64,000 bases of DNA. Source: an uncultured Acidobacteriota bacterium. Lineage in GTDB: Bacteria > Acidobacteriota > Terriglobia > Terriglobales > Acidobacteriaceae. The DNA is taken from assembly GCA_903873705.1 (NCBI GenBank), contig CAIQPK010000092.1, forward strand, positions 62,001-126,000, given 5' to 3'. Each line of letters begins with the position of its first letter. Within the stretch, counting starts at the first letter, position 1. Below the pieces are notes generated by a model, which had not been told where the DNA came from, made no database searches, and saw only the letters and a program-made list of their open reading frames with translations. Positions 42,006-57,900 of the stretch are shown one piece after another. Made by a program: the position numbers and the translations under genes.

Positions 42006-42365
42006 TTACTTCAAGTCCTTCAGAGCAGGAATGGTGTTGACCGCTGGCGGCGGGGGAAGCGACTTGATCCAGGCGTAAATGTCAGCAACTTCCTGCTCAG
42101 GTAAAACTTTTGCCGTGTAGGGAACCATCTGGCCGGATGGCTTACGAATGTAACTCACAAAATAATTCCAGGAGAAGTTCCGCTGCGTGAGGCGGGCTCC
42201 AGCCTGGCCGCCCTGGCCGACGTAGCCGTGGCACTGAAAGCAAGCGCGGTTGACAAAGAGTTTCTTGCCGTTCTCGACGTTTCCGGCTGGCGCGCCTGGC
42301 GCCTGGGCATGGAGCTGAACAGAACCTGCAAAGGCAAGCATGACAATCATGAGAACAAAACGCAT
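42006..42365 (-). CDS. Periplasmic mono-heme c-type cytochrome
   Basis: 119 residues with a signal peptide (to about HAQ, residue 21). A single heme motif C42-FQ-C45-H46 and a likely distal Met80 in SGQMVPY. Small class I cytochrome fold with the C-terminal helix VADIYAWIKSLP. It lies 24 nt downstream of the Tat-exported TPP enzyme, with GGGAG before its ATG, and is probably the electron acceptor in the periplasmic gene block, perhaps for the PQQ dehydrogenase at 51-53 kb. That pairing is inference. Confidence 0.9.
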   Translation of the reverse strand: MRFVLMIVMLAFAGSVQLHAQAPGAPAGNVENGKKLFVNRACFQCHGYVGQGGQAGARLTQRNFSWNYFVSYIRKPSGQMVPYTAKVLPEQEVADIYAWIKSLPPPPAVNTIPALKDLK

Positions 42366-42389
42366 CCGGCGATCTCCCTTTTTCGTTGC

Positions 42390-44327
42390 CTAGCGGGGTT
42401 GAGTAATGGTGTCGAGCAGCGCCACCTGGCCTTTTTCAACTTGCTCCACAGCACGAAGCAGCGCCGGCCTCAAATCGTTTGGATTCGAGATCGGCCCCTC
42501 GGCATAGGCACCCATGCTCTTAGCCAGCATGGCAAAGTCGATGTTGGGCTCCCTGATGAAGACTCCGGGAGCACCCATGGCGAAACTCTCCACGCCGCGC
42601 TGCCGCCGATTCGCCATGCGCTGAAGGTGCATCACTTCCTGGTGATAAGCACGATTGTTCAGCATGACGATCAACATGGGAATCTTGTGGTGAACCGCCG
42701 TCCACATGGCGTTGTTCACGAACATCATGTCGCCGTCTTTCTGCATGGAGACGACCAGACGCCCGTGCTTCTTGTGTGCCAGCGCGCCGCCGATGGTGCA
42801 GGGGAAATCGCCTCCGACGCCTCCGCCTGAGCCCACGTCACCCTGCCGGCGGTAGAACTTATCGAAGTTCCACAGGCGGTTGGAATTTGGCCCTACCAGT
42901 GCCCAGTCCTTGTCCTTGATGACGTCGTAGAGCTCCATGCTCAGCCGCTGCGTACTGATCGGGCTGGCATCCCATCCGTAAGTGCACTCGACCTTTGCCC
43001 GCTCATGCGCCTGCGCCCAGGCGGACGCAAACCGCTTCCCGCGCGCATCGTAGGCAGTGCGCTTGTCGGCGGTAATGAGCTTCTTGCAGGCTTCGATCAG
43101 GCTGGGCAGCGTTGCCTCTGGGTCGCCGGCAATCGCCATGTCCACTTCCTGGAAGCGATCGACGGCCTGATAGTTGCTCTTCTGGAAGAGGTCGTACGAC
43201 GAGATGGTGACGATTTTGGTTCCGGGCTTCAGCCTGGGAGTCGAATATCTGACCGCCTGGTCGCGGTAATCGTTGAGGACATTGAACAGCGATATCTCGT
43301 TGAGCGCCAGGATCATGTCCGCCGTGCCGAGATTGGCCCCACCCGCAAGAGGATGGTGATTGGGCATGCTGCGTCCTCCGCCCATCACCGGCGCCTGTAG
43401 CGTCTCAGCGAGCTCGACGAGCAGCTTGCTCCCTTCTTCGCCGCTGGCCACATCGCCAGCAACGATGACCGGGTTTTCTGCCGCGACAAGCCACTTGGCG
43501 AGCTCAGCAATGGCATTTGGATCGCCGACGGGCGGGGTGTCGAGAGTCAACTTCGGGATGTGCAGCTTCGAGTGGTTAGGGTTCGGCTTTTCCGCCATGC
43601 CTCCGTCAACCACGATCATGACCGGCCCACGCGGCTCGGTCATCGCCATCTTGTAGGCGCGCACACTGGACTCGGCAAAGTGCTGGAGCGATACCGGCGT
43701 ATCGTCCCACTTGGTGATGTCGCGGACCATCGCTGCCGGATCCATAACGGCGTGCTCCCACCAATCCGTGCTGGGGCGCCGCTCCACGGCGTCGAGAATA
43801 CTGGAGCACAGGACAAAGGTAGGTATATGACCTACAAAAGAGCCGAGGATGCCCATCGACGCATGCATCATGCCGCACGGAGCGAAGGTCATCACGGCCA
43901 TCGGCTTGCCTTCTACGGCGTAGTAGCCATTCGCAATGTTGACCGAGACTTCTTCGTGAAGACACGTGATCCACTCCGGCCCCTTGTTGCTGCCGTAGTG
44001 GAGAAACGATTCGTGGATACCTCTAAAGCTGGAGGAGGGATTCGAAGCGATGTATTCAAAGCCGAGCGACTTGATGACGTCGACCATGAAATCCGAACCG
44101 GGATCGTTGACAACAAATCCCGCGTCTTCAGGAAGCGGTGCGGTTTCCGTTGCCAGGGCCTGGCCGGTGATGAGCGGAGATAAAGGCGGCGCCTCTGGAG
44201 CTGACTCAGCTTTCGGCGTGGCGGCGGCTGCCAGTGGAGCTGAGACGATGGTGGTAGCTCCTGCGGCTGCTCCCAGGGCAGCTCCCTTAAGGAACCCGCG
44301 ACGATCCAGATGTGTGGCTTTCGCCAT
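42390..44327 (-). CDS. Tat-exported thiamine-diphosphate-dependent enzyme
   Basis: 645 residues. N-terminal twin-arginine signal DRRGFLKG (residues 8-15) with an Ala-rich h-region. The mature protein is a ThDP enzyme of the acetolactate synthase/benzoylformate decarboxylase superfamily. The catalytic Glu125 lies in CLHEEVSVNIANGYYAVEG. The ThDP/Mg motif is D531-G-D...N557-N558 (KDGDMMF to VMLNNRAYHQE), with the usual GDG first Gly replaced by Lys-Asp. The middle domain (about 270-400) is Rossmann-like. Export of a ThDP enzyme is unusual: the cofactor would have to be loaded in the cytoplasm before Tat transport. GAGGAGG precedes the ATG. Substrate unknown; decarboxylation or carboligation of a 2-oxo acid is the family chemistry. 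Confidence 0.87.
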   Translation of the reverse strand: MAKATHLDRRGFLKGAALGAAAGATTIVSAPLAAAATPKAESAPEAPPLSPLITGQALATETAPLPEDAGFVVNDPGSDFMVDVIKSLGFEYIASNPSSSFRGIHESFLHYGSNKGPEWITCLHEEVSVNIANGYYAVEGKPMAVMTFAPCGMMHASMGILGSFVGHIPTFVLCSSILDAVERRPSTDWWEHAVMDPAAMVRDITKWDDTPVSLQHFAESSVRAYKMAMTEPRGPVMIVVDGGMAEKPNPNHSKLHIPKLTLDTPPVGDPNAIAELAKWLVAAENPVIVAGDVASGEEGSKLLVELAETLQAPVMGGGRSMPNHHPLAGGANLGTADMILALNEISLFNVLNDYRDQAVRYSTPRLKPGTKIVTISSYDLFQKSNYQAVDRFQEVDMAIAGDPEATLPSLIEACKKLITADKRTAYDARGKRFASAWAQAHERAKVECTYGWDASPISTQRLSMELYDVIKDKDWALVGPNSNRLWNFDKFYRRQGDVGSGGGVGGDFPCTIGGALAHKKHGRLVVSMQKDGDMMFVNNAMWTAVHHKIPMLIVMLNNRAYHQEVMHLQRMANRRQRGVESFAMGAPGVFIREPNIDFAMLAKSMGAYAEGPISNPNDLRPALLRAVEQVEKGQVALLDTITQPR

Positions 44328-44381
44328 GCGCTATTTCCTCCTCAAACTACACAACCCCATTTTGTACACGAAACAGCCATA

Positions 44382-44417
44382 AGGCGGCGGGAAGAGATGA
44401 TCTTCTTCCTGCCGCCT
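44382..44417 (-). terminator. Hairpin between the interrupted TonB receptor and the TPP enzyme gene
   Basis: GC-rich inverted repeat AGGCGGC...GCCGCCT with arms of about 14 nt, one mismatch. Read leftwards it is followed by TATGGCTGTTTCG, not a true U-tract, so it may be a weak terminator or an RNA-stability element. Confidence 0.45.
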
Positions 44418-44430
44418 CCCATGGTTGGCT

Positions 44431-47400
44431 TTAGAAAAGTACTTTCAGTGTCAGCTGAACCTGACGCTGAGAGTTGGGGATAGTCGCCGTTACCTGGCCG
44501 GCTGTAGCCAGCGGATTTTCGGAATACATTCCAATATCCGTGAGCGTGCCGGTGTAGGAGCGGAACCCGGTTGGCAGTGCGAGGTTGGTGTGATTGAAGA
44601 GGTTGAACAATTCTGCGCGGAACTGCAGCTGGCCCTTCTCGCCAAGGAACGGCATGGCGGTGTCCTTATTCAGCGACAGGTCAACATTGGTGTAATGCGG
44701 TCCACGCAGGACGCTCTTGTGAACGGTTCCCATCTGGCCGATCGGGTTCAGTGTAAACATCAACGGGTTGAACCATTGGACGTAGCCCACATGGCCCTTT
44801 TGAGCCAAGGTCACCGTCTTGCTGTCGTAGGGAACAAAGGTTGATGTTGTCGTATTGGTGGTGCCATCCGCGCCCGTTTGTCCGGGCGCGACGTTCGCTA
44901 CGCCATAGTTGAGATACTCAGAAGCGGTGTCGGCCGTCTGCTGGTTCAAATTTTGCGACAACGTGCGCCACGTGTTGCTGGTTGGCGAGTACGGGAAGCC
45001 CGTCTGCCAAGCCGTTTTATTGCTGAGCCACCATCCGCTAAGAATCTCGCGGCCGACAAATCCTGCCATGTTCGTCTTGGGTAGGCGGTAGATGAAGCTT
45101 GCTTGCAGCGACTGTGGAACGTCGAAGCAGGCCGGTCCATAGTTGAAAATATGACGCGCCGGTTGAATGGCCAGGCTGGGAATGCCGCCCGATGCCACGC
45201 ATTCGGTAGAACTATGCGTTCCCTGTCCCTCGTCCAGTACCTTGCTGTAGGTGTAGGCGAGCTGAGCCTGGAGACCCTTGGTAAGGCGCTGGTTGATTGT
45301 GACCTGGCCACCGTGATAGGCGGAAAGGCCGTGTGTGGCCGCGAGAATCCAGTCGCCCCAGAGCGGGTTCTTGGAGGTCTTCACAATGTACTGACCCGGA
45401 AACGCCGCGTCGGTCGGGTACGTGCCGGTGAGGAAGTGGGCACTGGAAGTGCCGGGGTTGATGACGGTGTTACAGACCACGGAAGCGAACTTAGACTGCC
45501 CTGGCTGCCCGAATAAGGGGTTGGGCAATTGACCTGCCGGGTTAGCGCTGACGATTCCCGCCGGTGCGATGACGAAGGGACTTGTCCAGGAAGGAACACC
45601 GCTAGCGGTGATGGAGCTCGGGGTGCACGGGTTTCCTTCTTCGTAGTCCCAGAGATTTTGTCCCTTCGTTCCAACGTAGGCCAGGGTGATGGAGGTGCTT
45701 GGCGTGACCTGCTGCTGAATCGCGAAGTTCCACTGGAGCATCCGCGACTGGGCCGTGTTGTATTCAATGGTCTTCAAGGACTGACCGTAAGGCATGGTTC
45801 CGGGGACCAGGTTGTAAGCTGCGGTGACTACCGGAAAGCTTGCCACTGTCCCTGCCGGAAGCGTCAGGCCAGCGGATAACGGTGGCGATCCCGAGCTGGT
45901 GCCGTAGAACGCTTCGCCACCGGCATTGACATCGTCGTACACGCCGAAAGCAGCCCGGACGGCGGTCTTACCATTGCCCCATACATCCCATGCGGCGCCG
46001 ACCCGAGGTTGAACATTGAGAAACGAGACGTTCTTGATTGGGCGGCCATAGGTGGGTTCCGCGTCCGTGGTGCTGCGGAAACCCCAGTTAGCGCCGTGCT
46101 TATCGATCGGAATCGTATTCATCTCGTAGCGCAAACCCACATTGAGCGTCAGTCGTGAGTTGAAACGCCAGTCATCCTGCAAGTAGGTCCCAATCGTGTA
46201 GAAGCGCGGCTCTCTATGGAAATTGCTTCCTGGCAGCAGCGATGAGTAGTTGTTGTAGTTGCCAGCCATAAAGTCCGCAGTAGTGGGAAACGTGACATTG
46301 CCGCGGAGAGTATTGCCGTTATAGGTGTAGTACTCGATTCGGTTCAACAGGACGCCTAATTGCAGCGCATGACGCCCTCTTGTCCAATTGAGGTCATCAC
46401 TCATGTTGTAGGAATTTTCGTTAAATCCCTGCGGCGCGTTGCCCTGCGCTCCGAGTGCAGTGGAGCTGAGGCTGCTTACGGTGATTTGTCCCGCAGGCTG
46501 ACCGGCAACCATGTTGATTGAATTGAAAGTATCCGGGTATGCCGGGTCATTCTTGTTGAGCGTCCGGCTGTACGATGCCCGATAGGTGTTCAGCAAGCTC
46601 GACGAGAAAATGTGGTTCCAGGCAATCGTATCGAACTGGTCTACACCGTTGGTGACGGCTCCCACACCCTGATACGTGGTTCCAGGGTAGGAAACAGTGG
46701 CCTGCTGATTCGAGTTATCGATGGTGACGCGGGCGAAGATGGAATCCTTAGCAGAAATGGTCTGATCTACACGCACCTGATAATAGTCTTAGGTGAGTGG
46801 CTGGTTGCTATTGATGGTGTACTTGGTGCCCACATTTGCCACGGGGTACCAGGTCAGGAAGGGCTTCATCGCCGGGTTTACGGCACCGGTCGGGTTCGCG
46901 GCCGTGACCGCGCAGGGGTTTGTTACCAGCAGCGCCACTCCACCGGAACCGTTAGGATTGCAGTTCGTCGGAAGCGTGCTGATGGTGCTCGTCACGCCCG
47001 CAATCAGGCGGATTCCCTCATAGACACCATAAAAGAAGGTCTTGTCTTTCCTGATGGGCCCGCCAAAAGAGCCACCAAAATTGTTCTTGATCAATTTCGG
47101 CTTTGAAACAGCAAAGTAACCCGAGGCATCAAGGTAGTCGTTGCGGAGAGAGTCGAACGCGTCCCCGTGGAACTGATTCGTCCCGCCTTTGCTGGCGATG
47201 ATGATCTGGCTTCCCATCGAAATTCCGTATTGCGCACCGAAGGCGTTCGAGATGACGCGAAACTCCTGGATGCCGTCCACGCCCAGCGTGGTGCCCACCG
47301 CAGTCGAGGTGGTACCTGTAAGGTTCATCAGGGGTGCGCCATCGAGGGTAACGAGATTGGATCGCAGCGGCGCGCCGTTGGAGCTGAAATAGACGGCGCC

Positions 47401-47919
47401 CTTGAGAACGGCGGGACCGTTAGCCGTCGCATTTGATATGCCGGGCTGCAGTAGCGCGAGGTCGATAAAGTTTCTTCCATTCAACGGGAGATCAGCAACC
47501 TGCTGACTGTTGACGAGACCACCCAGCGAGCTCGTCGTCGTTTCAACCTGAGGGGCAGTGGTACCGTCGACGCTTATCGTCTGCGTTGCCAATCCAACAG
47601 CCAGGGTCACGTTCGCCGTAGCATTTTGGGCTACGGTCAAGGTCAGGTTCTTCACGGTTGAGACACTGAACCCATCCTTCTCCACGACGACAGTGTATTG
47701 GCCCGGGGGCAGCACATCCACACGGTACAACCCGTCACCGGCCGACTCGCCGCTTCGACTCACGTTTGTGTCTTGATTCGTGATCGTAATTTTGGCTCCC
47801 GGGACAGCAGCGCCGGTAGCATCCCGCACAGATCCAAGAATGGCGCTCGTAGAGAGTTGTCCCAGCAGTGGGGACACGATGAACAACAGCAGGCCTAACG
47901 TAACGAAAATTTTCTTCAC
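44431..47919 (-). pseudogene. Oar-like TonB-dependent receptor interrupted by an in-frame TAA
   Basis: Read through a single stop, this is one 1162-residue receptor. GTG start at 47919 with GGAGG 7 nt upstream, signal peptide (VTLGLLLFIVSPLLGQ), CarboxypepD_reg-like domain (about 28-110), plug (LPLNGRNFIDLALLQPGIS, LDGAPL) and barrel ending RQVQLTLKVLF. The TAA at 46791-46789 falls between NSNQPLT and DYYQVRVDQTISAKDSIFARV, a segment normally continuous in these receptors (often LTEDYYQVRVDQ). Both halves stay in the same frame with no other disruption, so this is a recent single-base nonsense change, a read-through site or a sequencing error. An internal GTG at 46776 would give a barrel-only product without a signal. 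It lies between the PrpD-like and TPP genes. Confidence 0.85.
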
Positions 47920-48497
47920 TTCGCCTCCGGAATACACGGGATTCCCATCATGGGAGTCCTCGCGTTGAGTGAATGCAGTTAAGTTCACTAGTGTGCAAGT
48001 ACGCGGAAAAATCCGTGGCCTGATAAAGCAGTAATCGGGAGCGGCGACACTTATACCCACAGCCTTAATTCCTTGTCAAACTAAAAACACGGAATGTTTC
48101 AAAAGGGCCGAAGTCCGAGATGACAGCCGAAGTGACGTGATCCGATAAATAACTCTTTTTCAATGAGTTATCGACCGACGGAAGCATCGCCGCCGAAGGT
48201 GTAGTTAAGAATGTCTAGAGACCGGGCAGGGGCAACACCTGATTGACCGTGATTACAAAGCCTACCGGCGGTCAGGGGCCGGGACACTAATCGTTGATCG
48301 CGCTTACTTTTTCCACCCAGAAAAGAGCAACCACTCACTCATCTCTCGAACGAGCCGTTGAAACTGGGGAAACGACCGTCACGCGGAGGGTCAGGTCTGC
48401 TTTAACTTCCGGTCGACTATGGCACGTTAAGCGTTTCCGGCCAGGATGTTACTCCTGGCCGGATTGACGCCTACCGATTTACGGACTGGCAGGCCTA
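47920..48497 (-). other. Leader and promoter region of the interrupted TonB receptor
   Basis: No coding region recognised. The upstream 140 codons of open frame beyond 47919 show no signal peptide or family sequence and are treated as leader. A promoter-like pair sits at 48050-48079. Confidence 0.5.
48050..48079 (-). promoter_or_regulatory. Sigma-70-like promoter for the TonB receptor
   Basis: TTGACA (48079-48074) and TATAAG (48055-48050) on the minus strand, 18-nt spacer. The first bases TTGACAAG match the promoters of the PQQ dehydrogenase and NHL genes. Predicted leader about 120 nt. Confidence 0.6.
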
Positions 48498-48857
48498 CTA
48501 AGCTGCCTTTGTCGCGCTGTCCGCCGAGATCACCATCATCCCGTGTATCTCCGAGACTTCACCCGTGATCGTAGCGCTGAGCCCAAGAAAATCGATGATC
48601 CTAGCATTGTTGTCGGCGGCAAGGCCACCGATGATCTGGTAACACTTGCCGTCGGAGGTGACGATGGCGGCAGGCATGCCTTCCCACTTCACGGAAGCGC
48701 GCGCCTCGCCCAGACGCTGATCCAAGCCGCCTCCTCGACGTCCCTGGTTCTGCCCGTAGTAGGAAATTGAAACGACTTTTCCCGTCACGGTCTGAGTTGA
48801 AGGTGCGGGCAAAGCCGCATTCAAGGCGCCGATGAACTTTGCAAACGAAGACAACAT
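48498..48857 (-). CDS. Small OB-fold-like protein of unknown function
   Basis: 119 residues. The pattern VTGKVVSISYY ... CYQIIGG ... SATITGEVSEIHGMMVISADS resembles a short beta-barrel of the OB type, as seen in several exported acidobacterial proteins. A Gly/Arg-rich loop (GRRGGG) interrupts it. No convincing signal peptide: the N-terminus MLSSFAKFIGALNAALPAP is only weakly hydrophobic. It begins 21 nt after the PrpD-like gene, with AAAGGA 9 nt before the ATG, so the two are co-transcribed. Function unknown; the link to the PrpD-like enzyme is positional only. Confidence 0.55.
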   Translation of the reverse strand: MLSSFAKFIGALNAALPAPSTQTVTGKVVSISYYGQNQGRRGGGLDQRLGEARASVKWEGMPAAIVTSDGKCYQIIGGLAADNNARIIDFLGLSATITGEVSEIHGMMVISADSATKAA

Positions 48858-48878
48858 CGTAAGAGTCCTTTCTCGAGA

Positions 48879-50510
48879 TTACAGGGGTTTCGGTTGACCA
48901 AACGTTGCCAACGACTTGATAGCATCGCCGAAATTCTTCACGGCGCTCAGGTTCGACCAGAGCTTGTAAGCCTGGTCCCGCTGGGCGTTAGTCACCTTCT
49001 TGAACGCGCATGCCTTGTTCCATTTGGCTACGATTTCTTCCGGCGTGAAGTTGACGAAGTCAGGCAGTTGCAGGTCCCGCACACCGTTGTAAGTGTCGAA
49101 CGCCTTTACTTCGCCGGAGTTCTTCGTAATGGTGAGACGACCTACGCCGAGACCCTGCCAACCTCGTACAGGCGACATGGTGGTTTTCGCCATCAGGGCG
49201 CGGGCGGCGGGATCGTTCACCTTCGTCATGTCGTTGAAGGAGTCCATGTAGACGTCGCCCTCGATCAACGCGCGCGCAATGATGTACGGCTCGCTGTGAT
49301 CGGAGGTTTCGCGGTTGGTGGGATCCCACTTGGGCGCGTCGCAGATTTCTTCCCACACCGAGTAGGAGGTCTCCCAGTGGATCCAGGCCACCTCTTCCGG
49401 CTTTACCCACGCGCGAACGTCCGGCATCATGCGCAGAATGCCCTGCGAGGACGCCTCCGATGGACGGCGCTTGAACCAGTTGCGCTCGATCGCCATGCCG
49501 TCAGTGCGTTTGGGCAAGGTGAACGGGCGGCCCATGCCGTTGGCGTCCACACCACCACCGCCGTCGCCGCCGACCGTGCGGCCGGCCTGGCTTGCCCAGA
49601 AGCCGCCACGGCCTTCGAAGGGCTGCGGTGGCCCGGTCATGCCCTCCTTGGCCAAAATCGCAGCCCATACGCCGCACTTCGCGGACTCGGCACTGCGTGT
49701 GCCCTTCCACATCGACAGTGCGCCAACGCCCTTGTTCAGAGCGATGTGCGGGGTGAGGGCGATCGACAGGGCGTTGGCAAGGCGATCTTCGTCCAGCCCC
49801 ATCAACTTGCCCGCAACCATGGCCGCGATGACCGACTCGCCGCCACACGGAACGGACGCAACCTCGTAACCCACCACGATGGCTTCCATCACCTGCGCGC
49901 CGGTGCAATTGAGCGCTTCGCCCAGCGCCAGCGCCGCCGGAATCAGCGTGCTGACGTGACCGCCTTCGGCGTTATCGTCGAAGTCGACTTCACGGATGAG
50001 GCAGCCGTTGGCGAACGTGGCGAGTTCTGGCGTGGTCTGGACTCCGTAGCCCAGGACGGTGCACTTCAACGTGGTCGGTGCCGCATGCTTAGCGACACGG
50101 GCCGCGATGCGGCAGTTCTCTTCTTCAAAGCCGGCAATCAGCGAAGCCATCGAGTCGATCATCGTCTCGTCAAAGCGCTTCTTAGCTGCAGGGGTCACGT
50201 CCGACTCCTTGAAACCGTGGACCCAGCTGACGATCTTCCTGGTCGTATCGTCCATCGGGCCATTACCGTGGAGACGATTCGCCGTATTTTTGTAGCCAAT
50301 CCCGGTAAAGGGAGCAATGTCGCCGGCCGGTCGGGATGAACCCGGCGCGGGGCGCGATCTTTCCCCTCGACCTTCTTGCGCCCCAGCCATCGGTGCCATC
50401 GCTGCCATACCGACGGCGGTGGCGCCAAACTTCATCAATTCACGGCGGTCAAGGTGGAGTTCGGGTCCACCTTGATCCGCGCTCAAAATATTCCGGTCTT
50501 CATTGTTCAC
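48879..50510 (-). CDS. Tat-exported MmgE/PrpD-family protein
   Basis: 543 residues from GTG 50510, which has AGAGGAGG 7 nt upstream. Twin-arginine signal DRRELMKFG at about residues 22-30 with a short Ala/Met h-region ending MAGAQ. The rest is MmgE/PrpD fold: DSMASLIAGF, FANGCLIREVDFDD, ALSIALTPHIALNKG and LSMWKGTRSAESAKCGVWAAILAKEGMTGP. Family members include 2-methylcitrate dehydratase, cis-aconitate decarboxylase and iminodisuccinate epimerase, normally cytoplasmic. Tat export is unusual. Without structure-based comparison the reaction (dehydration, decarboxylation or epimerisation) cannot be assigned. Confidence 0.87.
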   Translation of the reverse strand: MNNEDRNILSADQGGPELHLDRRELMKFGATAVGMAAMAPMAGAQEGRGERSRPAPGSSRPAGDIAPFTGIGYKNTANRLHGNGPMDDTTRKIVSWVHGFKESDVTPAAKKRFDETMIDSMASLIAGFEEENCRIAARVAKHAAPTTLKCTVLGYGVQTTPELATFANGCLIREVDFDDNAEGGHVSTLIPAALALGEALNCTGAQVMEAIVVGYEVASVPCGGESVIAAMVAGKLMGLDEDRLANALSIALTPHIALNKGVGALSMWKGTRSAESAKCGVWAAILAKEGMTGPPQPFEGRGGFWASQAGRTVGGDGGGGVDANGMGRPFTLPKRTDGMAIERNWFKRRPSEASSQGILRMMPDVRAWVKPEEVAWIHWETSYSVWEEICDAPKWDPTNRETSDHSEPYIIARALIEGDVYMDSFNDMTKVNDPAARALMAKTTMSPVRGWQGLGVGRLTITKNSGEVKAFDTYNGVRDLQLPDFVNFTPEEIVAKWNKACAFKKVTNAQRDQAYKLWSNLSAVKNFGDAIKSLATFGQPKPL

Positions 50511-51119
50511 TGCGATGCCTCCTCTTACGTCCACTTTCAAAATGCTGGTTTTTAGCCAGGTTATTGCGACCATGCTTTCGCAATGCCGATAAGTATCTCG
50601 ACCAGGAAATCAATCGCGAGATAAGGCTGGAGTGGGGTCAAGACCCCTGTCTATGGCAAGGACCTTCTCATTCACTTGAAGCCACGCCATTGTGCTCAAA
50701 CGAATCGGCATTGGCTGTGTGTGATGCCGTGGCATCGAAACATAGAGACCAATAAATTGTCAACACAGAGCAGGCTTACAGCCCATGGTTCAACAAAAGT
50801 AGGATCACCCTTCGGGCTAAAGAGGAAGACCGGTGACTACGGCGTCGTACCAACAACTCGAACGAGTAAGAATGCTGCGTTGCAAACGGCGAACAAACGT
50901 TGCGCTACCTTCAAGCAACACAATATTTTCATAACTTCGGATGGCACGATTGCGAATACAACATGCGGCAGTGGCAATCCGTACCAGCACCGCGGCATGC
51001 TTGAGTCGGGAGTACCCTTTCAGAACATGCGTCGCACGCCCACTTCCGTGCTCAGTATGGCCACCGGCTACTGGCTCAACCCCATGGGCCCGCTGAACGG
51101 GATGCCATGCTACTGCCAA
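50511..51119 (-). other. Non-coding gap between the PrpD-like and PQQ dehydrogenase genes
   Basis: No gene recognised. Open frames in it (for example 50817-51143 minus and 50676-51137 plus) lack any family pattern. A TTGACA at 50763-50758 (minus) could be a -35 for the PrpD-like gene, but the hexamer 17 nt further (TTTCGA) is a poor -10. Confidence 0.4.
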
Positions 51120-51177
51120 GGAAAAACCTCTTACTGACGGCAATCCCTTTTCTGGGAATTTCCGTCGGTAAGAGGTT
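51120..51177 (-). terminator. Intrinsic terminator of the PQQ dehydrogenase gene
   Basis: Long inverted repeat AACCTCTTACTGACGG / CCGTCGGTAAGAGGTT (one mismatch) with an inner AATCCC/GGGAATT stem. Read leftwards it ends GAGGTTTTTCC, giving a U-tract. It starts about 20 nt after the stop codon. Confidence 0.85.
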
Positions 51178-51197
51178 GGGTTTAGTTTGCAGGTGCG

Positions 51198-53312
51198 TTA
51201 TTTACTGTTGGGTAGCGAAAACGCGATATATTCGCCAGTGTAGTCACCACCGCCTACCGCGACGATGATGTACTGTTTTCCATCTACCGAATAAGTAACA
51301 GGATTGCCGCTTTGCTGGGCGGGAAGATAGACCGCTCCTACCTGCTTACCCGTCAGCTTGTCATAGGCGCGAAGCATAGCGCCGCGCGGGTGGTCCGGGG
51401 TCGTCGTAACCTGCGGATCGCCCATAATGACGAGTGTCTTGGTAACCAGCGGACCAACGTTTCCGCTTTGACCGGTCTTAGGGATGTTGACGCCCTTGAG
51501 TGCGGGGCTATTGCGGATCGCATCGGGAGTGTCGCCGTGGGGTGTCTTCCAGAGCAACTCACCCTTGTCTAGTCCGATAGCTGAGAGGACGCCATAGGGC
51601 GGCTTCAGCATCGGTATGCCGTCAACAGCGGTGACCGCCCGGAAGGCATTGGGTGGGATGGGGGGCGCCTTCTTCAACGCTGCATCCACACGCGCCTGCT
51701 GTTCGGCCGACATCGTACCTGCACCGGTGGTGATGCGGAAGGGGGTTCCTACCGTACCGTTGAGGTAAGTCATGTCTGAATAGCCATCAGGAGGAGCGAC
51801 GAGACCAACCAGGTTAGCGTTTTCCACCGCGGGAGCGAAAACGATGTGCAGTTCAGGATCATAAGCGGCGCCTGTCCAATTGGTGCCGCCGGCGGCCGTG
51901 CTCATCAACAAGGTGGCGGCTGGGCCGTCGTAGGTGCTGACGACGGGAGGCGTGAACATCGGCCCACGCTTGTAGTGTGCGGCGAGCTCAACAGCCTTCT
52001 TGTGCAACTCCGGAGTGAGATCCGTCAGCTCATCATCGGTAGCATCGTGCCTTCCGTATGCGGGCGGTTTGCTCGGAACGGGCTGTGTCGGCGAGTACCA
52101 TTCGCCCGGGGTGTCGCCCTTGGGAACCGGCTTTTCGTCGATAGGCCACACGGGCTTTCCGGTAACGCGATCAAAGACGAACAGGAAGGATTCCTTGGTG
52201 GGCTGAGCGACGGCCTTGATCGGCTTGCCGTCGACAACGATGTCAGTGAGGATCGGCGGCGCGGAGATGTCGTAGTCCCACATATCGTGGTGAACGAGCT
52301 GGTAGTACCACTTGCGCTTGCCCGTATGAATATCTACGCAAACCAGGCTGTTCCCAAAGAGGGTGTTGCCGGGCCGTGAGCCGCCGTAGTTGTCGTTGGT
52401 GGGCTGTTCGACGGGCAGGTAAACCAGCCCGAGTTCGGGATCGGCCGTGATGCCCGCCCACACGCCGGTGTTGCCGTTGACGTCTGCGGAGTTGTTCAGC
52501 CAGGTGTCGTAGCCGAACTCGCCTTTGCTGGGGATGGTGTTGAACTGCCAGAGCATCTTGCCGGTGCGGACGTCGAAGCCGCGGGCGATGCCCTTGGTGT
52601 TTTCGTGGCTTACCGGCGTTCCGCCATCCTTGAAGGCGGAGCCGATCAGGATCACGTTGTCGGCGACGATGGGCGCGGCGTGCAAGCCGATTTCGCCCGT
52701 TTTCATATCGATCTGCTTGCCGAGGCCGTGGACGACGCCGACCTTCATATCGACGATGCCATTCTTGCCAAAGGTGGGGATGGGCTGGCCGGTCTTCGCA
52801 TTGAGCTCGACGAGTTGGTACCCAATCGTGACGAGGATGATGCGTTCGTCACCCTTACCATCGGTCCAGTAGCCGAGGCCGCGACCGGAAAGGTTACGCG
52901 GCGAGTTCAGGGCGCGATCGCCTTCGTCGAGACCGTAGGCCCACTTCAGTTCGCCGGTCTTCGCGTCGAGCGCAATGGCATCGCGGCGGGTGCCGGCGGT
53001 GGTGTAGACCGTTCCGTTGATCTCAAGAGGGGAACCTTCCAGCTTGTACTCCGGGCGAGGACCAAAGTTGTTCGTCTTGAGACGCCACGCCACGGTGAGC
53101 TTACTGAAGTTGGAAGCGTCGATCTGAGCTAACGGCGAGTAGCGGGTACCCGCATCGTCGGCGAAGTAGGTAGGCCAGTCTCCCTTAGCTACTGAAGGCT
53201 GCGCGCTCTGAGTTGATGACTGCGCTCCGACTTGCCCCCCAAGTCCCGTTCCCGCCAGCGCAACTAATGCGACGAAGCTGAATAACTCCGTCCGCAGCCT
53301 TGATGTTGACAT
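51198..53312 (-). CDS. Periplasmic PQQ-dependent (quinoprotein) dehydrogenase
   Basis: 704 residues with a signal peptide (to about VGAQSS, residue 32). Eight-bladed propeller of the glucose/alcohol quinoprotein type. Recognised by GDWPTYFADDAGTRYSPLAQI at the mature N-terminus, SSPLEINGTVYTTAGTR-like blade strands, LVHHDMWDYDISAPPIL (active-site blade) and the C-terminal YIIVAVGGGDYTGEYI. No CxxCH heme motif, so electrons must pass to quinone or a separate cytochrome such as the one at 42 kb. Membrane helices of the mGDH type are absent. Substrate unknown: an alcohol, aldose or aldehyde is possible. Its promoter at 53.7 kb is nearly identical to that of the NHL gene. Confidence 0.9.
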   Translation of the reverse strand: MSTSRLRTELFSFVALVALAGTGLGGQVGAQSSTQSAQPSVAKGDWPTYFADDAGTRYSPLAQIDASNFSKLTVAWRLKTNNFGPRPEYKLEGSPLEINGTVYTTAGTRRDAIALDAKTGELKWAYGLDEGDRALNSPRNLSGRGLGYWTDGKGDERIILVTIGYQLVELNAKTGQPIPTFGKNGIVDMKVGVVHGLGKQIDMKTGEIGLHAAPIVADNVILIGSAFKDGGTPVSHENTKGIARGFDVRTGKMLWQFNTIPSKGEFGYDTWLNNSADVNGNTGVWAGITADPELGLVYLPVEQPTNDNYGGSRPGNTLFGNSLVCVDIHTGKRKWYYQLVHHDMWDYDISAPPILTDIVVDGKPIKAVAQPTKESFLFVFDRVTGKPVWPIDEKPVPKGDTPGEWYSPTQPVPSKPPAYGRHDATDDELTDLTPELHKKAVELAAHYKRGPMFTPPVVSTYDGPAATLLMSTAAGGTNWTGAAYDPELHIVFAPAVENANLVGLVAPPDGYSDMTYLNGTVGTPFRITTGAGTMSAEQQARVDAALKKAPPIPPNAFRAVTAVDGIPMLKPPYGVLSAIGLDKGELLWKTPHGDTPDAIRNSPALKGVNIPKTGQSGNVGPLVTKTLVIMGDPQVTTTPDHPRGAMLRAYDKLTGKQVGAVYLPAQQSGNPVTYSVDGKQYIIVAVGGGDYTGEYIAFSLPNSK

Positions 53313-53708
53313 GTGTATTTCCTTTCTTACCGCAAATGAGTTTACTTGAAAATTGGTAAAGGGCGGTGTCCTGGGTCACAACCTGCCGCGGACTCGGGCG
53401 GCGCCTGCGCCCGGAAGCGCGAACGCGGAAGTGCCGCATGTTTTAGCCGGTCTGCAGGCCAAGGCCTGCGCCAAAAACGAGGGGTATCTCCCCAGCGTGT
53501 CGCTCATATGAAATCGAATTTCCTTCACTGCACTCGTCGAAATTTCAGAAAAGCTACCGCCAGCAGTCGTATCGGACATTTTTCGAAAACGTGAAATGGA
53601 CCTACTTCTGTTGAACGGTTTTGGACAAGGCTGGGCGTCTCTTTATTTGTATTCAAGGGTTTCCCGCGCTAGCGGTCCCCGGACTGGGCACTTTGGGTAC
53701 TGCAACCC

Positions 53709-53736
53709 TATATATCTCCAGCGGTTTTCTTGTCAA
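53709..53736 (-). promoter_or_regulatory. Promoter of the PQQ dehydrogenase gene (matched pair, copy A)
   Basis: On the minus strand TTGACA (53736-53731), 16-nt spacer starting AGAAAA, TATATA (53714-53709), then GGGT. Copy B at 54859 has the same boxes, spacer length and flanks. A leader of about 390 nt is implied. Confidence 0.75.
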
Positions 53737-53963
53737 CAGTTTCGGCATTCAGCGGAATTATGCGCTCTTTCCTGTTGAGGTCTGCCTGCGGCGTCAGCGG
53801 GGAGGCCTGATCCGGGCGGACACCAAGGCAAACGGCACCCGCGCTGGAACGACATCACACGTTACCGCTTCGACCTTAGCGGAGGTAACTCATGGGCTTA
53901 GCGGAGGGCGACCAGAGGACGAAGCGCCGCGTGAGTGAGACTTGTGGACGCGACGGGCTGTTG

Positions 53964-53975
53964 CGGTATATACCG
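53964..53975. promoter_or_regulatory. Perfect 12-bp palindrome in the divergent region
   Basis: CGGTATATACCG, perfectly self-complementary, about 190 nt upstream of the cupin gene. It could be an operator half-site pair or overlap a -10; no regulator is known. Confidence 0.3.
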
Positions 53976-54155
53976 GTTGGGCTTTTGCTAACGTCGCGAA
54001 CCCGTAGCCGATAGGCGAAGGCAATAAGATCAGCAGGCTCGGCTAAAGCGAGTTACTTGTGCGAAATGGATCTTCAACTGGGAAGTATTGAAGCTTGACT
54101 CGCGAGCACGGTGCCTTGATATTTATTCAGCAATTCAGAAAGCGGAGGAATCGGA

Positions 54156-54740
54156 ATGCAAAAGGCCGTTCAGAAGTTAGCTCTATTGACTTTGTCGGGG
54201 ACCCTGGCTTACTCACAGACGGCTACACCCCCAGCGGCTACGCCTGCATCCCGTCCTACTGCGGCCACCTACATTACCAAGGATGATGTGGACGCCGTCC
54301 TGAAGTCGCAACCGCTGGGTGATCACGACATCAAGAGTGTGGATGTAGGCAAGTTGAACCTCTCCGTGGGCGTTGTCAGCCGCGCCGCGAGCAAGCCCAG
54401 CGCCGATGGATCGGTGAATGTTCTTGCCCATCACCATCAAACCGAGACTTACATCATCATCGAGGGGTCGGGAACTCTGGTAACAGGCGGCGACACCTAC
54501 GATGGCAGGGAGACGCCACCAACTTCCATGATGTACACCACCTACAACGGACCAACGACGCAGGGAAAGACGAAGAACGGTGTGCGCCGTGTGGTCAATG
54601 TCGGCGACATTGTTATCATCCCGCCCGACGTGAATCACGGATGGGCGGAGATTCCGGTCCACGTCACTTACCTGAGCGTTCGGCCCGATCCGGATCGGCA
54701 GCTGCCTGCGGGTTATGTCTTCCCTGCCCTGCGTAAGTAG
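54156..54740 (+). CDS. Exported cupin-domain protein
   Basis: 194 residues with a signal peptide (LALLTLSGTLAYSQ). Single cupin domain. Metal ligands are visible as HHH (residues 92-94) and Glu97 followed by the EGSGTLVTGG turn, and the second motif GDIVIIPPDVNHGW with His161. Small periplasmic cupins can be dioxygenases, isomerases or decarboxylases; no choice is possible from sequence. GGAGGAATCGG precedes the ATG. It belongs to the rightward half of the envelope catabolic block. Confidence 0.87.
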   Translation: MQKAVQKLALLTLSGTLAYSQTATPPAATPASRPTAATYITKDDVDAVLKSQPLGDHDIKSVDVGKLNLSVGVVSRAASKPSADGSVNVLAHHHQTETYIIIEGSGTLVTGGDTYDGRETPPTSMMYTTYNGPTTQGKTKNGVRRVVNVGDIVIIPPDVNHGWAEIPVHVTYLSVRPDPDRQLPAGYVFPALRK

Positions 54741-55216
54741 CCGGTGGTTAGCCCGAACGATGGCCTGGTCACGCTACCTTCAAAGACGCGCGGTTAAGGA
54801 ATTCCGGTGTCCACGCGGCCCCCGTTCAAGGGGTCTATTGGCCTTCCCAAAAATATCATTGACAAGAAAATCTTTGAACATATATAGGGTACGGGTACCG
54901 CAATACATATTCTCACCGCAATCGCAGAGCTTGCGGTGTTCCTGGTTCTCTCCCGAGGCCATCACCCTTTCCCACACTCATGTGAGGGAGCGATGGTTGC
55001 CATGATCAAAGCCAACCGCATGAAACAGACCTGACGCCGCCAGTGAGACGGTATAGTTTCACGAGCGGAAGAGAACCATGAGAGTGGCCGGACCGTGTAG
55101 AGAATGGAAGAGGCGTCATCCAGGGCGCAGCAGTGCTAATGAAGATATAGTTTCATCGTGACGAAGCAGGGCCACTCAACAAGCGCCAACAGCAGGGACA
55201 TGGAGGAAGTGACGGA
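54741..55216 (+). other. Non-coding leader region before the NHL gene
   Basis: No gene recognised. It holds promoter copy B (54859-54886) and a leader of about 320 nt. Confidence 0.5.
54859..54886 (+). promoter_or_regulatory. Promoter of the NHL-repeat gene (matched pair, copy B)
   Basis: TTGACA (54859-54864), 16-nt spacer starting AGAAAA, TATATA (54881-54886), then GGGT. It agrees with copy A at 27 of 32 positions counted by eye from the -35 to GGGT. Expected start near 54893. Confidence 0.75.
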
Positions 55217-56557
55217 ATGAATCGCAAGATGATGGATAAGGTAAGTACGATCGCACTGGTAGCCGCTTTTGGCGCCGGCGTAACGCCATTGGTGGCGCAG
55301 ACCCCGGCAGCCAAGGCTCCCGCAGCCAAAGCTCCGGCTAAGGCGATGGCAGCCAAGAGCGGCGACATCATGGTGCCGAAGTTTGAGGCGGACCCCTATT
55401 GGCCCAAGCCGCTGCCGAATGGCTGGGTGCTCGGCATGACGATCGGCGTGGCCGTCGATCCGAAAGACAACGTGTGGATCGTTCATCGTCCTGCGGCACT
55501 CGACGCCAAGGAATCCTACGGCAAGCGCGGTGAAGGTGTCTGCTGCTCAGCAGCACCCGACGTTCTGGAGTTCGATAAGCTGGGCAACCTGATTCGGCAC
55601 TGGGGCAAGGATCCCGGGCACGACTGGCCAGCCTCGAATCACGGCATCCTGATCGATAAAGACGGCAACGTCTGGTTGGGCGCCAACGCCAACCGTGCCC
55701 CGAGCGCTGACCCGGGAAGCAAGCAGCAGTACGAGTCGGTCGGGAGCGGTTATAAGACACTCGCCGCGCCAGTTGATCCTGAAGCCCCTGCCGGATCGGG
55801 AGCCTACCACGATAGCTTCGTCCTGAAGTTCAGCCCCGACGGGAAGTTTCTCGGCGAGATCGGCAAGGCTTACGGAAGCAAGGGCAGCCTGGATAAAGAT
55901 AACGTCCGCGGCGTAGCCCAACTACGCATTATCCCGTCGACCGGCGAGCTGTTGCTGGCCGATGGCTACGGCAACCACCGCGTTTCGCTGTGGGACACGA
56001 AGACGATGAAGATGACTCGCATGTGGGGTGCTTACGGCAAGGCGCCGACCGACCTCAACATCCCCTACTTCAACACCGAGTCTCCGCAGTTTGGTAACCC
56101 TGTGCATTGCGCTCAGCCTTCCAACGACGGCCTGATCTATGTGTGCGATCGTGAGAACAATCGCGTACAAATCTTCAAGGTTGACGGAACGTACCTGAAG
56201 CAGTTCACCGTGGAAACGATGACGCGTGGCGACGGCGCACCCTGGGAAATTGCCTTCTCCAAGGATGCGAAGCAGAAGTTCATGTTCGTGAATGATGGCG
56301 CCAATAACCGCATCCACGTTTATGATCGCGAGTCGCTGAAGGAGCTGTACTGGTTTGGCGGCGGCGGACGGCAGCCCGGCCAGTTCTACGCGGTGCACAG
56401 CATCGACGTCGACTCCCATGGCGACCTCTTCACCACCGAGACCTATCATGGTCAGCGTGTGCAGAAGTGGGTCTTCAAGGGTATGGTACCGCTGAGCCAG
56501 TTGCTGAAGGAGCACTTCGTCGGCAATACCGAGTATGCTGTTCCCAACGTCGAGTAG
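55217..56557 (+). CDS. Exported NHL-repeat/six-bladed propeller protein
   Basis: 446 residues. Signal peptide (IALVAAFGAGVTPLVAQ) then an Ala/Lys/Pro linker (about 30-50). The mature protein has NHL-type strands VAVDPKDNVWIVHRP, HGILIDKDGNVWLGAN, LLLADGYGNHRVSLWD, VCDRENNRVQIFKVDG and IDVDSHGDLFTTETYHGQRVQKW. These repeats resemble the peptidyl-hydroxyglycine alpha-amidating lyase/SMP-30 type propellers. A hydrolase, lyase or binding role is possible. Start ATG 55217 follows GGAGGAAG. Shared promoter design with the PQQ dehydrogenase indicates co-regulation. Confidence 0.85.
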   Translation: MNRKMMDKVSTIALVAAFGAGVTPLVAQTPAAKAPAAKAPAKAMAAKSGDIMVPKFEADPYWPKPLPNGWVLGMTIGVAVDPKDNVWIVHRPAALDAKESYGKRGEGVCCSAAPDVLEFDKLGNLIRHWGKDPGHDWPASNHGILIDKDGNVWLGANANRAPSADPGSKQQYESVGSGYKTLAAPVDPEAPAGSGAYHDSFVLKFSPDGKFLGEIGKAYGSKGSLDKDNVRGVAQLRIIPSTGELLLADGYGNHRVSLWDTKTMKMTRMWGAYGKAPTDLNIPYFNTESPQFGNPVHCAQPSNDGLIYVCDRENNRVQIFKVDGTYLKQFTVETMTRGDGAPWEIAFSKDAKQKFMFVNDGANNRIHVYDRESLKELYWFGGGGRQPGQFYAVHSIDVDSHGDLFTTETYHGQRVQKWVFKGMVPLSQLLKEHFVGNTEYAVPNVE

Positions 56558-56584
56558 TTGTTGCAACGCATAATTTGAAGGTAC

Positions 56585-56634
56585 AGCTGCGATTGGGATT
56601 GGGAACACGTACCCAATTTCAATCGCAGCTTTCC
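56585..56634 (+). terminator. Hairpin terminator after the NHL gene
   Basis: Perfect 11-bp stem AGCTGCGATTG / CAATCGCAGCT with a 24-nt loop, followed by TTTCCTT. It lies 27 nt after the stop codon. Confidence 0.7.
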
Positions 56635-56691
56635 TTAACGGCACTTCGTTGGTAGCAGTAAGTCTTTATAGAGAAATGGTGGATCGAGAAT

Positions 56692-57900
56692 ATGTCGCAA
56701 ACAAATAGGTGGGGGCTGGTCGTAGCCGCAGTCTGTTTCCAGATGTCACTGGGCGCGGCTTATGCCTGGAGCGTGTTTACCGGTCCGCTGTCGAAGGAAT
56801 ACGGCTGGAGCATCTCGCAGGTTGCTTATGCTTTCACCATCGGCTGGTTCTTTCTTGGAACCGCGGCGGTAGTAGGTGGTCTCTGGCTGCATCGCAGCAC
56901 ACCTCGCATGGTGGCAATGACCGGCGGACTGTTGTGGGGCGCCGGCGTCTTTCTGGCTAGCTTCTCCGGTCCAAGGTTGTGGTGGTTGTACCTGACCTAT
57001 GGCGTGCTCGGTGGCATCGGCCTGGGAATGGGCTACATTGTGCCCATTTCTTTTCTCGTAAAGTGGTTCCCTGACCGCAGAGGACTCATCGTCGGCCTTG
57101 CGGTGGGAGGATTTGGAGCGGGCTCGCTTATCTCGGCGCCGGTCGCCCATCACTTGATTGAGAGCCTCGGTGTGTCACGCACTTTTGCCTGCCTGGGCAT
57201 CGCTTACGCTATGATCGCGACGATCTCCGCGTCATTCATGAAAAATCCGCCAGAGGGCTGGACCCCTGAGGGATGGACACCCAGCGCGAAGCAGAGTTCA
57301 CAACGCTCGACTCGCGATTACACGCTTGCCGAGGCCCTTAGAACGTGGCAATGGTGGGCCATCTGTCTGCTGCTTTGCATCAATACCATGGCTGGATTGT
57401 CCGTGGTTTCGCAGGCTGCTCCTATATTCAAGGAGTTAGGAAAAGTAACTCCAGCGGCGGCCGCAGGCATGGTGGGCATCATCAGCATCGGTAACGGTCT
57501 CGGCCGCGTGATCTGGGCGTGGATATCCGATATGACCAGCAGGAAAATTGCTTATTTCTCCATGTACCTTGTGGGCGCTCTTCTCTTTTGGAATTACCAC
57601 AACATCTCGTCGCCGGTCCTGCTTCTGATTGTCACGTTTACGCTGGTGACCTGCTACGGCGGAGGCTATGGTGTCACACCAGCCTTCGCTGCGGATTACT
57701 TCGGTCCGCGACATGTGGGATCGATCTTCGGCTTTATGATGCTGCCCTGGGCATTCACCTCGGCGTTTGGTCCGTCGCTGTTTGCCTATCTGAGACAAAC
57801 GACCGGCTCTTACACGGAAGGCCTTTATCTCATCGCCGGAATGCTGACCCTGGCGCTGGTGCTTCCGACCCTCGTCAAGCCACCCAAAGCCGCCCACTAA
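56692..57900 (+). CDS. MFS transporter, OFA (oxalate/formate antiporter-like) family
   Basis: 402 residues with 12 predicted membrane helices. The N-terminal QMSLGAAYAWSVFTGPLSKEYGWS and GIGLGMGYIVPISFLVKWFPDRRGLIVGLAVGGFGAGSL segments are typical of the OFA group, whose members exchange or import small carboxylates such as oxalate, formate, lactate or pyruvate. Being the only inner-membrane transporter in the envelope block, it is the probable route by which an acidic product made in the periplasm enters the cell. It follows the NHL gene by 134 nt, after a terminator. Confidence 0.87.
   Translation: MSQTNRWGLVVAAVCFQMSLGAAYAWSVFTGPLSKEYGWSISQVAYAFTIGWFFLGTAAVVGGLWLHRSTPRMVAMTGGLLWGAGVFLASFSGPRLWWLYLTYGVLGGIGLGMGYIVPISFLVKWFPDRRGLIVGLAVGGFGAGSLISAPVAHHLIESLGVSRTFACLGIAYAMIATISASFMKNPPEGWTPEGWTPSAKQSSQRSTRDYTLAEALRTWQWWAICLLLCINTMAGLSVVSQAAPIFKELGKVTPAAAAGMVGIISIGNGLGRVIWAWISDMTSRKIAYFSMYLVGALLFWNYHNISSPVLLLIVTFTLVTCYGGGYGVTPAFAADYFGPRHVGSIFGFMMLPWAFTSAFGPSLFAYLRQTTGSYTEGLYLIAGMLTLALVLPTLVKPPKAAH

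Follow-up and report, generated by a model that had tools for sequence, protein, structure and literature searches.

A block of about 16 kb in the genome of an uncultured Acidobacteriota bacterium (Terriglobales; Acidobacteriaceae) brings together genes for several enzymes that carry export signals, and raises the question whether these genes serve one pathway in the cell envelope. The block (positions 42006-57900) lies in a window of 64,000 nucleotides, the whole stretch of DNA that was analysed, taken from contig CAIQPK010000092.1 of assembly GCA_903873705.1; the genome itself amounts to 4.18 Mb in 94 contigs. A sequence-only reading had named eight genes here and joined them into a single route of uptake, decarboxylation, dehydration, oxidation and import. 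All eight genes and their domains are borne out by the open reading frames (ORFs), Pfam and NCBIfam at the positions given below, but the list was incomplete, a ninth gene (48498-48857) having been overlooked. The single route is unsupported; in the loci and genomes examined, linkage of the whole block was not seen again. Judged from linkage, the block is a mosaic of separately conserved modules and not one pathway. Within it, a thiamine diphosphate (ThDP)-dependent enzyme with a twin-arginine translocation (Tat)-type signal and a c-type cytochrome encoded next to it probably form a periplasmic oxidoreductase acting on 2-oxoacids (or on aldehydes or acyloins).

The ThDP-dependent enzyme (42390-44327, minus strand, 645 amino acids) has the TPP N, M and C domains (PF02776, PF00205 and PF02775), all over cut-off. 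Directly downstream, starting 24 nt from it, is the gene for a Sec-type monohaem c-type cytochrome (42006-42365, minus strand; PF13442, 45.6 bits; PF00034, 35.7 bits) with a CFQCH motif and a likely Met haem ligand in GQMVPY. Relatives of the ThDP enzyme were scanned for in 84,980 species genomes at a loose cut-off, and the best 80 of at least 575 candidates, not a random draw, were kept. At 77 of these 80 loci at least 400 nt of downstream sequence was available for testing; two of the three excluded loci also have a cytochrome. In 66 of the 77 loci, a small CXXCH gene or a cytochrome match lies no more than 500 nt beyond the 3' end of the ThDP gene, on the same strand in 64. Among the other large ORFs of the same loci, a small CXXCH gene follows 11 of 419, the control ORFs being scored by the CXXCH test alone. 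The cytochrome could be traced as a same-strand ORF in 63 of the 80 loci, and in 58 of them it begins within 40 nt of the ThDP stop codon or overlaps it. Clustering of the neighbours at 40 further ThDP loci placed the ThDP enzyme at 39 loci, the cytochrome at 24, an Oar receptor at 11 and all others at 6 or fewer; the cytochrome is the only neighbour widely common to these loci.

The distribution within the class was followed in a sample of 220 genomes, in which relatives of each protein were listed at set cut-offs and the own genome of the window was counted each time. ThDP relatives are present in 35 of the 220 (E <= 1e-60; at most five candidates scored per genome), and in eight of these 35 genomes the match rows number 4 to 6, though some of these rows are pieces of a single gene. 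Tandem ThDP genes are seen at loci L178 and L220, with cytochromes, and at G085:C15:21869-25746, suggesting duplication of the module.

Export signals were judged by eye from the protein starts. Clear Sec-type starts are present in the cytochrome, the pyrroloquinoline quinone (PQQ)-family propeller, the cupin and the NHL propeller, and twin-arginine starts in the ThDP enzyme (LDRRGFLKG) and the MmgE/PrpD-family protein (LDRRELMKF). As the sequence-only reading stated, a Sec or Tat signal can be read in most proteins of the block. In the ThDP enzyme the RRxFLK-type motif stands ahead of a hydrophobic stretch, and the Pfam TAT_signal match at its start reaches 19.8 bits, just below the cut-off of 22.7; for MmgE the Pfam scan reported no TAT_signal match. 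The membrane location of the OFA-type protein was assigned from its family. The twin arginines are kept in 39 of the 39 ThDP alignment rows that extend to the motif and, by scripted count, in 76 of 79 relatives, the other three being ORFs where the wrong frame was apparently picked. They are likewise kept in all 14 aligned MmgE rows (13 from the own genome and one from G037, another genome of the class sample). This conservation supports the envelope location proposed for the two enzymes. Our claims of association beyond chance are based on the linkage tests and not on counts of signals.

The cofactor site of the ThDP enzyme is intact. The catalytic Glu (E124), D530-G531-D532 and N556-N557 are invariant in 43 of 43 aligned rows, the first Gly of the usual GDG motif being replaced in most of them. 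At the position aligned with the active-site His of benzoylformate decarboxylase, which we take to be residue 70, 41 of the 43 rows have His; the window copy has Phe147, and its nearest relative, at L150, also has Phe. With this Phe the window copy may not behave like the other members of the family. Shortly after the two cofactor asparagines, His561 and Glu563 are kept in the Tat-type rows and are replaced by other residues in three non-Tat rows; with three outgroup rows, their specificity for the Tat-type clade is a lead only.

The predicted structure (predicted local distance difference test score 80.5) has the fold of ThDP enzymes, and its best 50 PDB matches are all ThDP enzymes at 16-21% identity, among them acetolactate synthases, benzoylformate decarboxylases and pyruvate:quinone oxidoreductase. 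Since the matches spread over several enzymes at such identity, the model fixes the fold and not the reaction. Among proteins of solved structure, benzoylformate decarboxylase (PDB 4q9d, 1bfd) gives the best match by sequence and by profile; it shares the three-domain fold, the catalytic Glu and the DG(D)...NN motif. The window enzyme differs from it in having a Tat-type signal, a cytochrome partner, the candidate clade-specific His561/Glu563 (YHQE) after the NN and Phe for His70, at about 20% identity, and it fails the benzoylformate decarboxylase model NF005485 (118.2 bits; cut-off 493). Pyruvate:quinone oxidoreductase or pyruvate oxidase (PoxB, PQO; PDB 9ev6) has the ThDP fold in common with it, and a further likeness would be ThDP-dependent oxidation feeding the respiratory chain, as we infer for the window enzyme. 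PoxB/PQO works at the cytoplasmic face with flavin adenine dinucleotide and quinone, whereas the window enzyme is of Tat type and is paired with a c-type cytochrome; the pyruvate oxidase model NF006377 is failed (63.2 bits; cut-off 742). The best NCBIfam match, over most of the length, is NF006203 (PRK08327, 'thiamine pyrophosphate-requiring protein'), at 186.5 bits far below the cut-off of 456. Among the best 25 of 46 matches, the nearest curated families all stay below their cut-offs.

Related pairs are also found on plasmids outside the Acidobacteriota, where ten records with ThDP relatives were found and five were inspected. Plasmid p3 of Caballeronia zhejiangensis (L247) encodes a Tat-type relative (43% identity; start MTARRTFLK) with a dihaem cytochrome gene 8 nt downstream. 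The pair (WP_244808613.1 and WP_244808614.1) adjoins a ring-hydroxylating dioxygenase cluster with a porin, an MFS transporter and a citrate synthase. On a Novosphingobium plasmid, a relative with 38% identity is followed by two CXXCH ORFs, beside an ORF that by eye resembles a TonB receptor. In the relatives inspected from Sinorhizobium, Phyllobacterium and Neorhizobium (30-36% identity; three sequences), neither a Tat-like start nor a nearby CXXCH ORF was found, and the two of them that carry annotation lie close to genes for tripartite tricarboxylate transporters. A maximum-likelihood tree of 48 rows, rooted at its midpoint, unites the Tat-type forms in a single clade (support 100/99); some rows have long branches, and all alignment rows were labelled Tat, though 4 of 43 are cut short of the motif.

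The same tree bears on the origin of the gene. The window enzyme pairs with that of L150 (100/100), and the two sit in a clade with three Sulfopaludibacter rows (100/99), nested among Solibacteraceae-type sequences. At E <= 1e-40 the gene was not found in the 27 other genomes of the genus (1 of 28 with the own genome). This position in the tree, together with the absence from the 27 genus genomes, suggests that the ThDP gene of the window was probably acquired horizontally. A search for the empty site with the flanking genes in 25 genomes, own genome included, returned no relative in which close matches of both flanks adjoin.

In the mechanism that we propose, the ThDP enzyme, with its benzoylformate decarboxylase/acetolactate synthase fold, would take up ThDP and Mg while folding in the cytoplasm and would then be exported by Tat; the small cytochrome would be exported by Sec. 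The substrate would add to ThDP and be decarboxylated, the electron-rich intermediate would be oxidised by cytochrome c, and the cytochrome would pass the electrons to the respiratory chain. For import of the acid product, a common carboxylate carrier could serve, for instance the MFS protein encoded nearby. Gene pairing, and that only, backs the earlier proposal of electrons going to cytochrome c in the case of the ThDP enzyme. Actual export, direct electron transfer, oxidative chemistry and the kind of substrate, a 2-oxoacid or aldehyde, are what we infer.

Several points weigh against such an oxidoreductase. At 11 of the 77 loci no cytochrome neighbours the enzyme; there it may be supplied in trans or may not be needed. 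Adjacency of genes is no proof of electron transfer, no flavin or Fe-S relay was identified for the pair, and we know of no citable precedent for direct transfer from ThDP to haem. The non-Tat comparison consists of three sequences. Finally, with Phe147 the window copy itself may have changed or lost its chemistry.

An alternative, unlikely but the best of those considered, is that the ThDP enzyme is an exported non-oxidative decarboxylase or carboligase, and that a separate dehydrogenase, of the PQQ type or another, oxidises the aldehyde with the cytochrome as its acceptor. Two observations would suit this. Among proteins of solved structure, those closest in sequence are benzoylformate decarboxylases; and PQQ-family genes occur near the ThDP gene, 6.9 kb away in the window and, encoding proteins of 52-59% identity, no more than 2 kb away at 3 of the 80 loci (L201, L205 and L206). 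However, a PQQ match of any strength is present in 7 of the 80 loci (four above 50% identity, three of them the close ones just named), as against a cytochrome after the ThDP gene in 66 of 77, and elsewhere, at six loci, the PQQ gene is followed by a cytochrome of its own (Pfam match tested on one).

The PQQ-family protein itself is also against this alternative. It is a Sec-type beta-propeller (51198-53312, minus strand; PF01011, 567 bits) that reads RPGNTLF, with Asn at the place where PQQ alcohol dehydrogenases are expected to have their catalytic Asp (an RPGDN-type motif). Among 15 distinct members with at least 50% identity, window included, 13 have Asn, one Asp (L135/L109) and one Ala (L206). 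An Asp close by is retained in the clade (T/S-x-D ahead of YGG or a similar stretch). The protein is possibly quinoprotein-like, with altered or no PQQ chemistry. With the membrane PQQ dehydrogenases of TIGR03074 it shares the propeller fold, in a partial match (367.5 bits; cut-off 832.65) that begins at model position 138, the front part of the model being absent from the window protein; the match to TIGR04528, 'acido-empty-quinoprotein', is also partial (221.2 bits; cut-off 650). Around the gene in the window, no CXXCH ORF of at least 60 codons is present between 50400 and 51300 or between 53200 and 54300.

A single envelope pathway encoded by all 16 kb, with outer-membrane uptake, periplasmic decarboxylation, dehydration and oxidation, and import of a small acid, is distinctly improbable. 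The physical proximity of the genes speaks for it, and so does their distribution. Relatives were listed in 2 genomes of the class sample for MmgE, 29 for the cupin, 43 for the NHL propeller and 44 for the PQQ propeller, and neither these four lists nor the ThDP list includes another genome of the window's family, of which at least 20 were sampled. The genes may thus have arrived together, and with no relatives found in the other family genomes, the block is apparently not ancestral there. A further point in favour is that four other genomes (L124, L125, L131 and L135) have PQQ and NHL genes in one neighbourhood, in some cases together with cupin and Oar. At L124 and L125 the set consists of a cupin, a VOC/glyoxalase-type protein, an NHL propeller, cytochrome-like and unknown proteins, a PQQ propeller with its own cytochrome, and an Oar receptor, and looks like a catabolic cluster.

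Linkage to the ThDP gene, on the other hand, is scarce. The best 80 ThDP loci have no cupin, one MmgE (25% identity), one OFA-type transporter (30%) and six NHL propellers (five at 25-28%, one at 41%); Oar receptors, an abundant family, occur at 15 (22-37%). In the class sample outside the own genome, no ThDP-cupin, ThDP-NHL or ThDP-PQQ pair was found within 2 kb, the PQQ list being incomplete. Within 20 kb the respective counts are 0, 1 and 1, with 0.75, 0.84 and 0.85 expected if genes are placed at random in a genome of 5 Mb. This pair test omitted short or partial rows and covered 75 ThDP rows (35 of 35 genomes), 55 PQQ rows (34 of 44 genomes, so that PQQ pair counts are lower bounds), 45 cupin rows and 60 NHL rows, own genome included. 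On linkage, one conserved eight-gene pathway was rejected. As far as examined, the whole block is linked only in the own genome. Repeated linkage, which the sequence-only reading had put forward as the support to look for, holds for ThDP-cytochrome and cupin-NHL, and in few other genomes for the PQQ-NHL neighbourhoods.

The layout of the block is no more favourable to a single pathway. Gaps between the genes include 437, 624, 843 and 476 nt, and the strand switches between 53312 and 54156. Lying on two strands, with intervals as long as 843 nt, the genes do not form one operon. The promoter scan stayed under the shuffles and the terminator scan within one standard deviation of them. The GC content of the block, 0.55-0.62, does not single out an island. 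The Oar-type TonB receptor (44431-48060, minus strand; PF25183, 394 and 111 bits, and PF13620, 72.5 bits, in the two halves) has the domains ascribed to it but is not an intact ORF: one TAA, in frame at 46789-46791, divides it into stretches of 423 and 785 codons that share a frame. This TAA is either a real nonsense mutation or an assembly error, and the receptor probably has an internal GTG as its start, and a Sec-like signal. Near the end of the window, at 63174-63893, lies a protein of SCO1/SenC type (66 bits) whose start weakly resembles CusF; it may take part in copper supply to cytochrome oxidase.

The MmgE/PrpD-family protein too argues against one pathway, as it belongs to a family of 13 copies spread over ten contigs. 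Its gene (minus strand; PF03972, 157 bits, and PF19305, 46.9 bits, both over cut-off) spans 48879-50510 or 48879-50573, the start at 50510 having the better Shine-Dalgarno-like stretch. The overlooked ninth gene, 21 nt away on the same strand, encodes a small DUF5818-like protein that has no Pfam match itself and no obvious signal; a paralog matches DUF5818 at 22.8 bits, below the cut-off of 27. Such a gene lies downstream of 7 of the 13 Tat-type MmgE copies that the own genome has at E <= 1e-40, window included in both counts. The copies are on contigs C3, C6, C14, C16, C41, C44, C48, C54, C56 and C92 of this genome (G000; the window, L110-L119 and L121). Several are near NHL propellers or TonB receptors, and a peroxidase-family gene (L116:13590-16328; PF00141, 240 bits) is near two of them.

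This expansion is peculiar to the genome among those sampled. At the same cut-off the 27 other genus genomes gave one match, in one genome. At E <= 1e-15, PF03972 yields 17 rows in the own genome, two of which belong to a single gene; the 79 other family genomes have 0-3 rows each. Only the own genome passed 1e-70 in a 396-genome sample of the phylum, with three candidates scored per genome, and the class sample gave one other genome with a relative (G037, 2e-105). The plasmid relatives comprise six records with at most 32.5% identity, none with 80% cover. The nearest solved structures to the window protein are of the MmgE/PrpD family, namely iminodisuccinate epimerase (2hp0/2hp3; profile match 5e-34) and cis-aconitate decarboxylase (6r6u). 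Since these are an epimerase and a decarboxylase, the protein is likely to act as an epimerase, lyase or decarboxylase of small carboxylic acids. It fails the equivalog models of 2-methylcitrate dehydratase PrpD (62.5, 38.8 and 24.9 bits; cut-offs 950, 575 and 458), and it differs from known MmgE/PrpD proteins in its Tat-type start, its pairing with a small gene and its 13 copies in one genome.

On the plus strand, the Sec-type cupin (54156-54740; PF07883, 27.9 bits, cut-off 27.2) and the Sec-type NHL propeller (55217-56557; PF01436, 42.1 bits) make a pair that recurs. In the class sample, 12 cupin-NHL pairs within 2 kb were found in 12 other genomes, with about 0.09 expected; this unnamed conserved pair is seen at L130, L132-L134, L136 and L149, among others. 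Within 20 kb there are 5 cupin-PQQ pairs (0.66 expected) and 4 NHL-PQQ pairs (0.75 expected). A scytonemin-like cluster was considered and rejected: the match to NF035926 ScyF, an NHL protein by the name of the model, is 81.7 bits against a cut-off of 350, and no ThDP-NHL pair within 2 kb was found in the class sample, ScyA being a ThDP enzyme.

The last gene (56692-57900, plus strand) encodes an MFS carboxylate carrier, as expected for the OFA-type transporter proposed here, but of the L-lactate (SfMCT) type: it meets the SfMCT model NF049980 (410.5 bits; cut-off 320) and fails the two oxalate/formate models among the matches listed (228.3 bits against 374.85; TIGR04259, 165.2 against 335). 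Oxalate degradation by the OFA-type protein, the cupin and the ThDP enzyme was rejected, TIGR04259 being failed and the lactate model passed. On the linkage data the modules of the block would be the ThDP enzyme with its cytochrome, the NHL propeller with the cupin and sometimes the PQQ propeller, and MmgE with the small DUF5818-like gene; the latter two appear to be separate modules that ended up beside the ThDP pair.

A detoxification or redox-sensing role of the ThDP-cytochrome pair, for example in periplasmic removal of reactive aldehydes, is very improbable: the pair has no consistent uptake or catabolic neighbours and occurs in several copies per genome in some Acidobacteriota, but the dioxygenase and transporter cluster beside the Caballeronia pair and the TonB-receptor-like ORF beside the Novosphingobium pair (by eye) suit catabolism, and no sensor domain was found in the Pfam scan.

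To our knowledge, ThDP enzymes have been treated as cytoplasmic; the cofactor is made in the cytoplasm, and the products usually feed coenzyme A (CoA) or nicotinamide adenine dinucleotide (NAD) chemistry. Literature searches on exported ThDP enzymes and on MmgE in Acidobacteria, which mostly covered papers other than those under subscription, gave no description of an exported ThDP enzyme with a cytochrome partner. What is new here is a known ThDP fold and cofactor in a new place and with a new partner. More tentatively, and with considerable doubt, the pair may stand for an undescribed, widespread periplasmic class of ThDP enzymes, spanning Acidobacteriota of soils and certain Proteobacteria, that hands 2-oxoacid electrons straight to a dedicated cytochrome without flavin, Fe-S, CoA or NAD; in this genome it would have been added to a 13-copy family of Tat-exported MmgE proteins, whose small signal-less partner is maybe carried along by Tat.

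If the periplasmic oxidoreductase is real, some of the central chemistry of 2-oxoacids would take place in the periplasm, in a conserved exported branch that has a cytochrome of its own, and organic acids would gain a direct route to the respiratory chain. The ThDP family is common in the class, mostly in uncultured soil lineages with poorly known carbon use, and the related pair on the plasmid of a named Caballeronia strain makes the proposal open to a bench test. The expansion of MmgE in the own genome is a second testable oddity of this bacterium.

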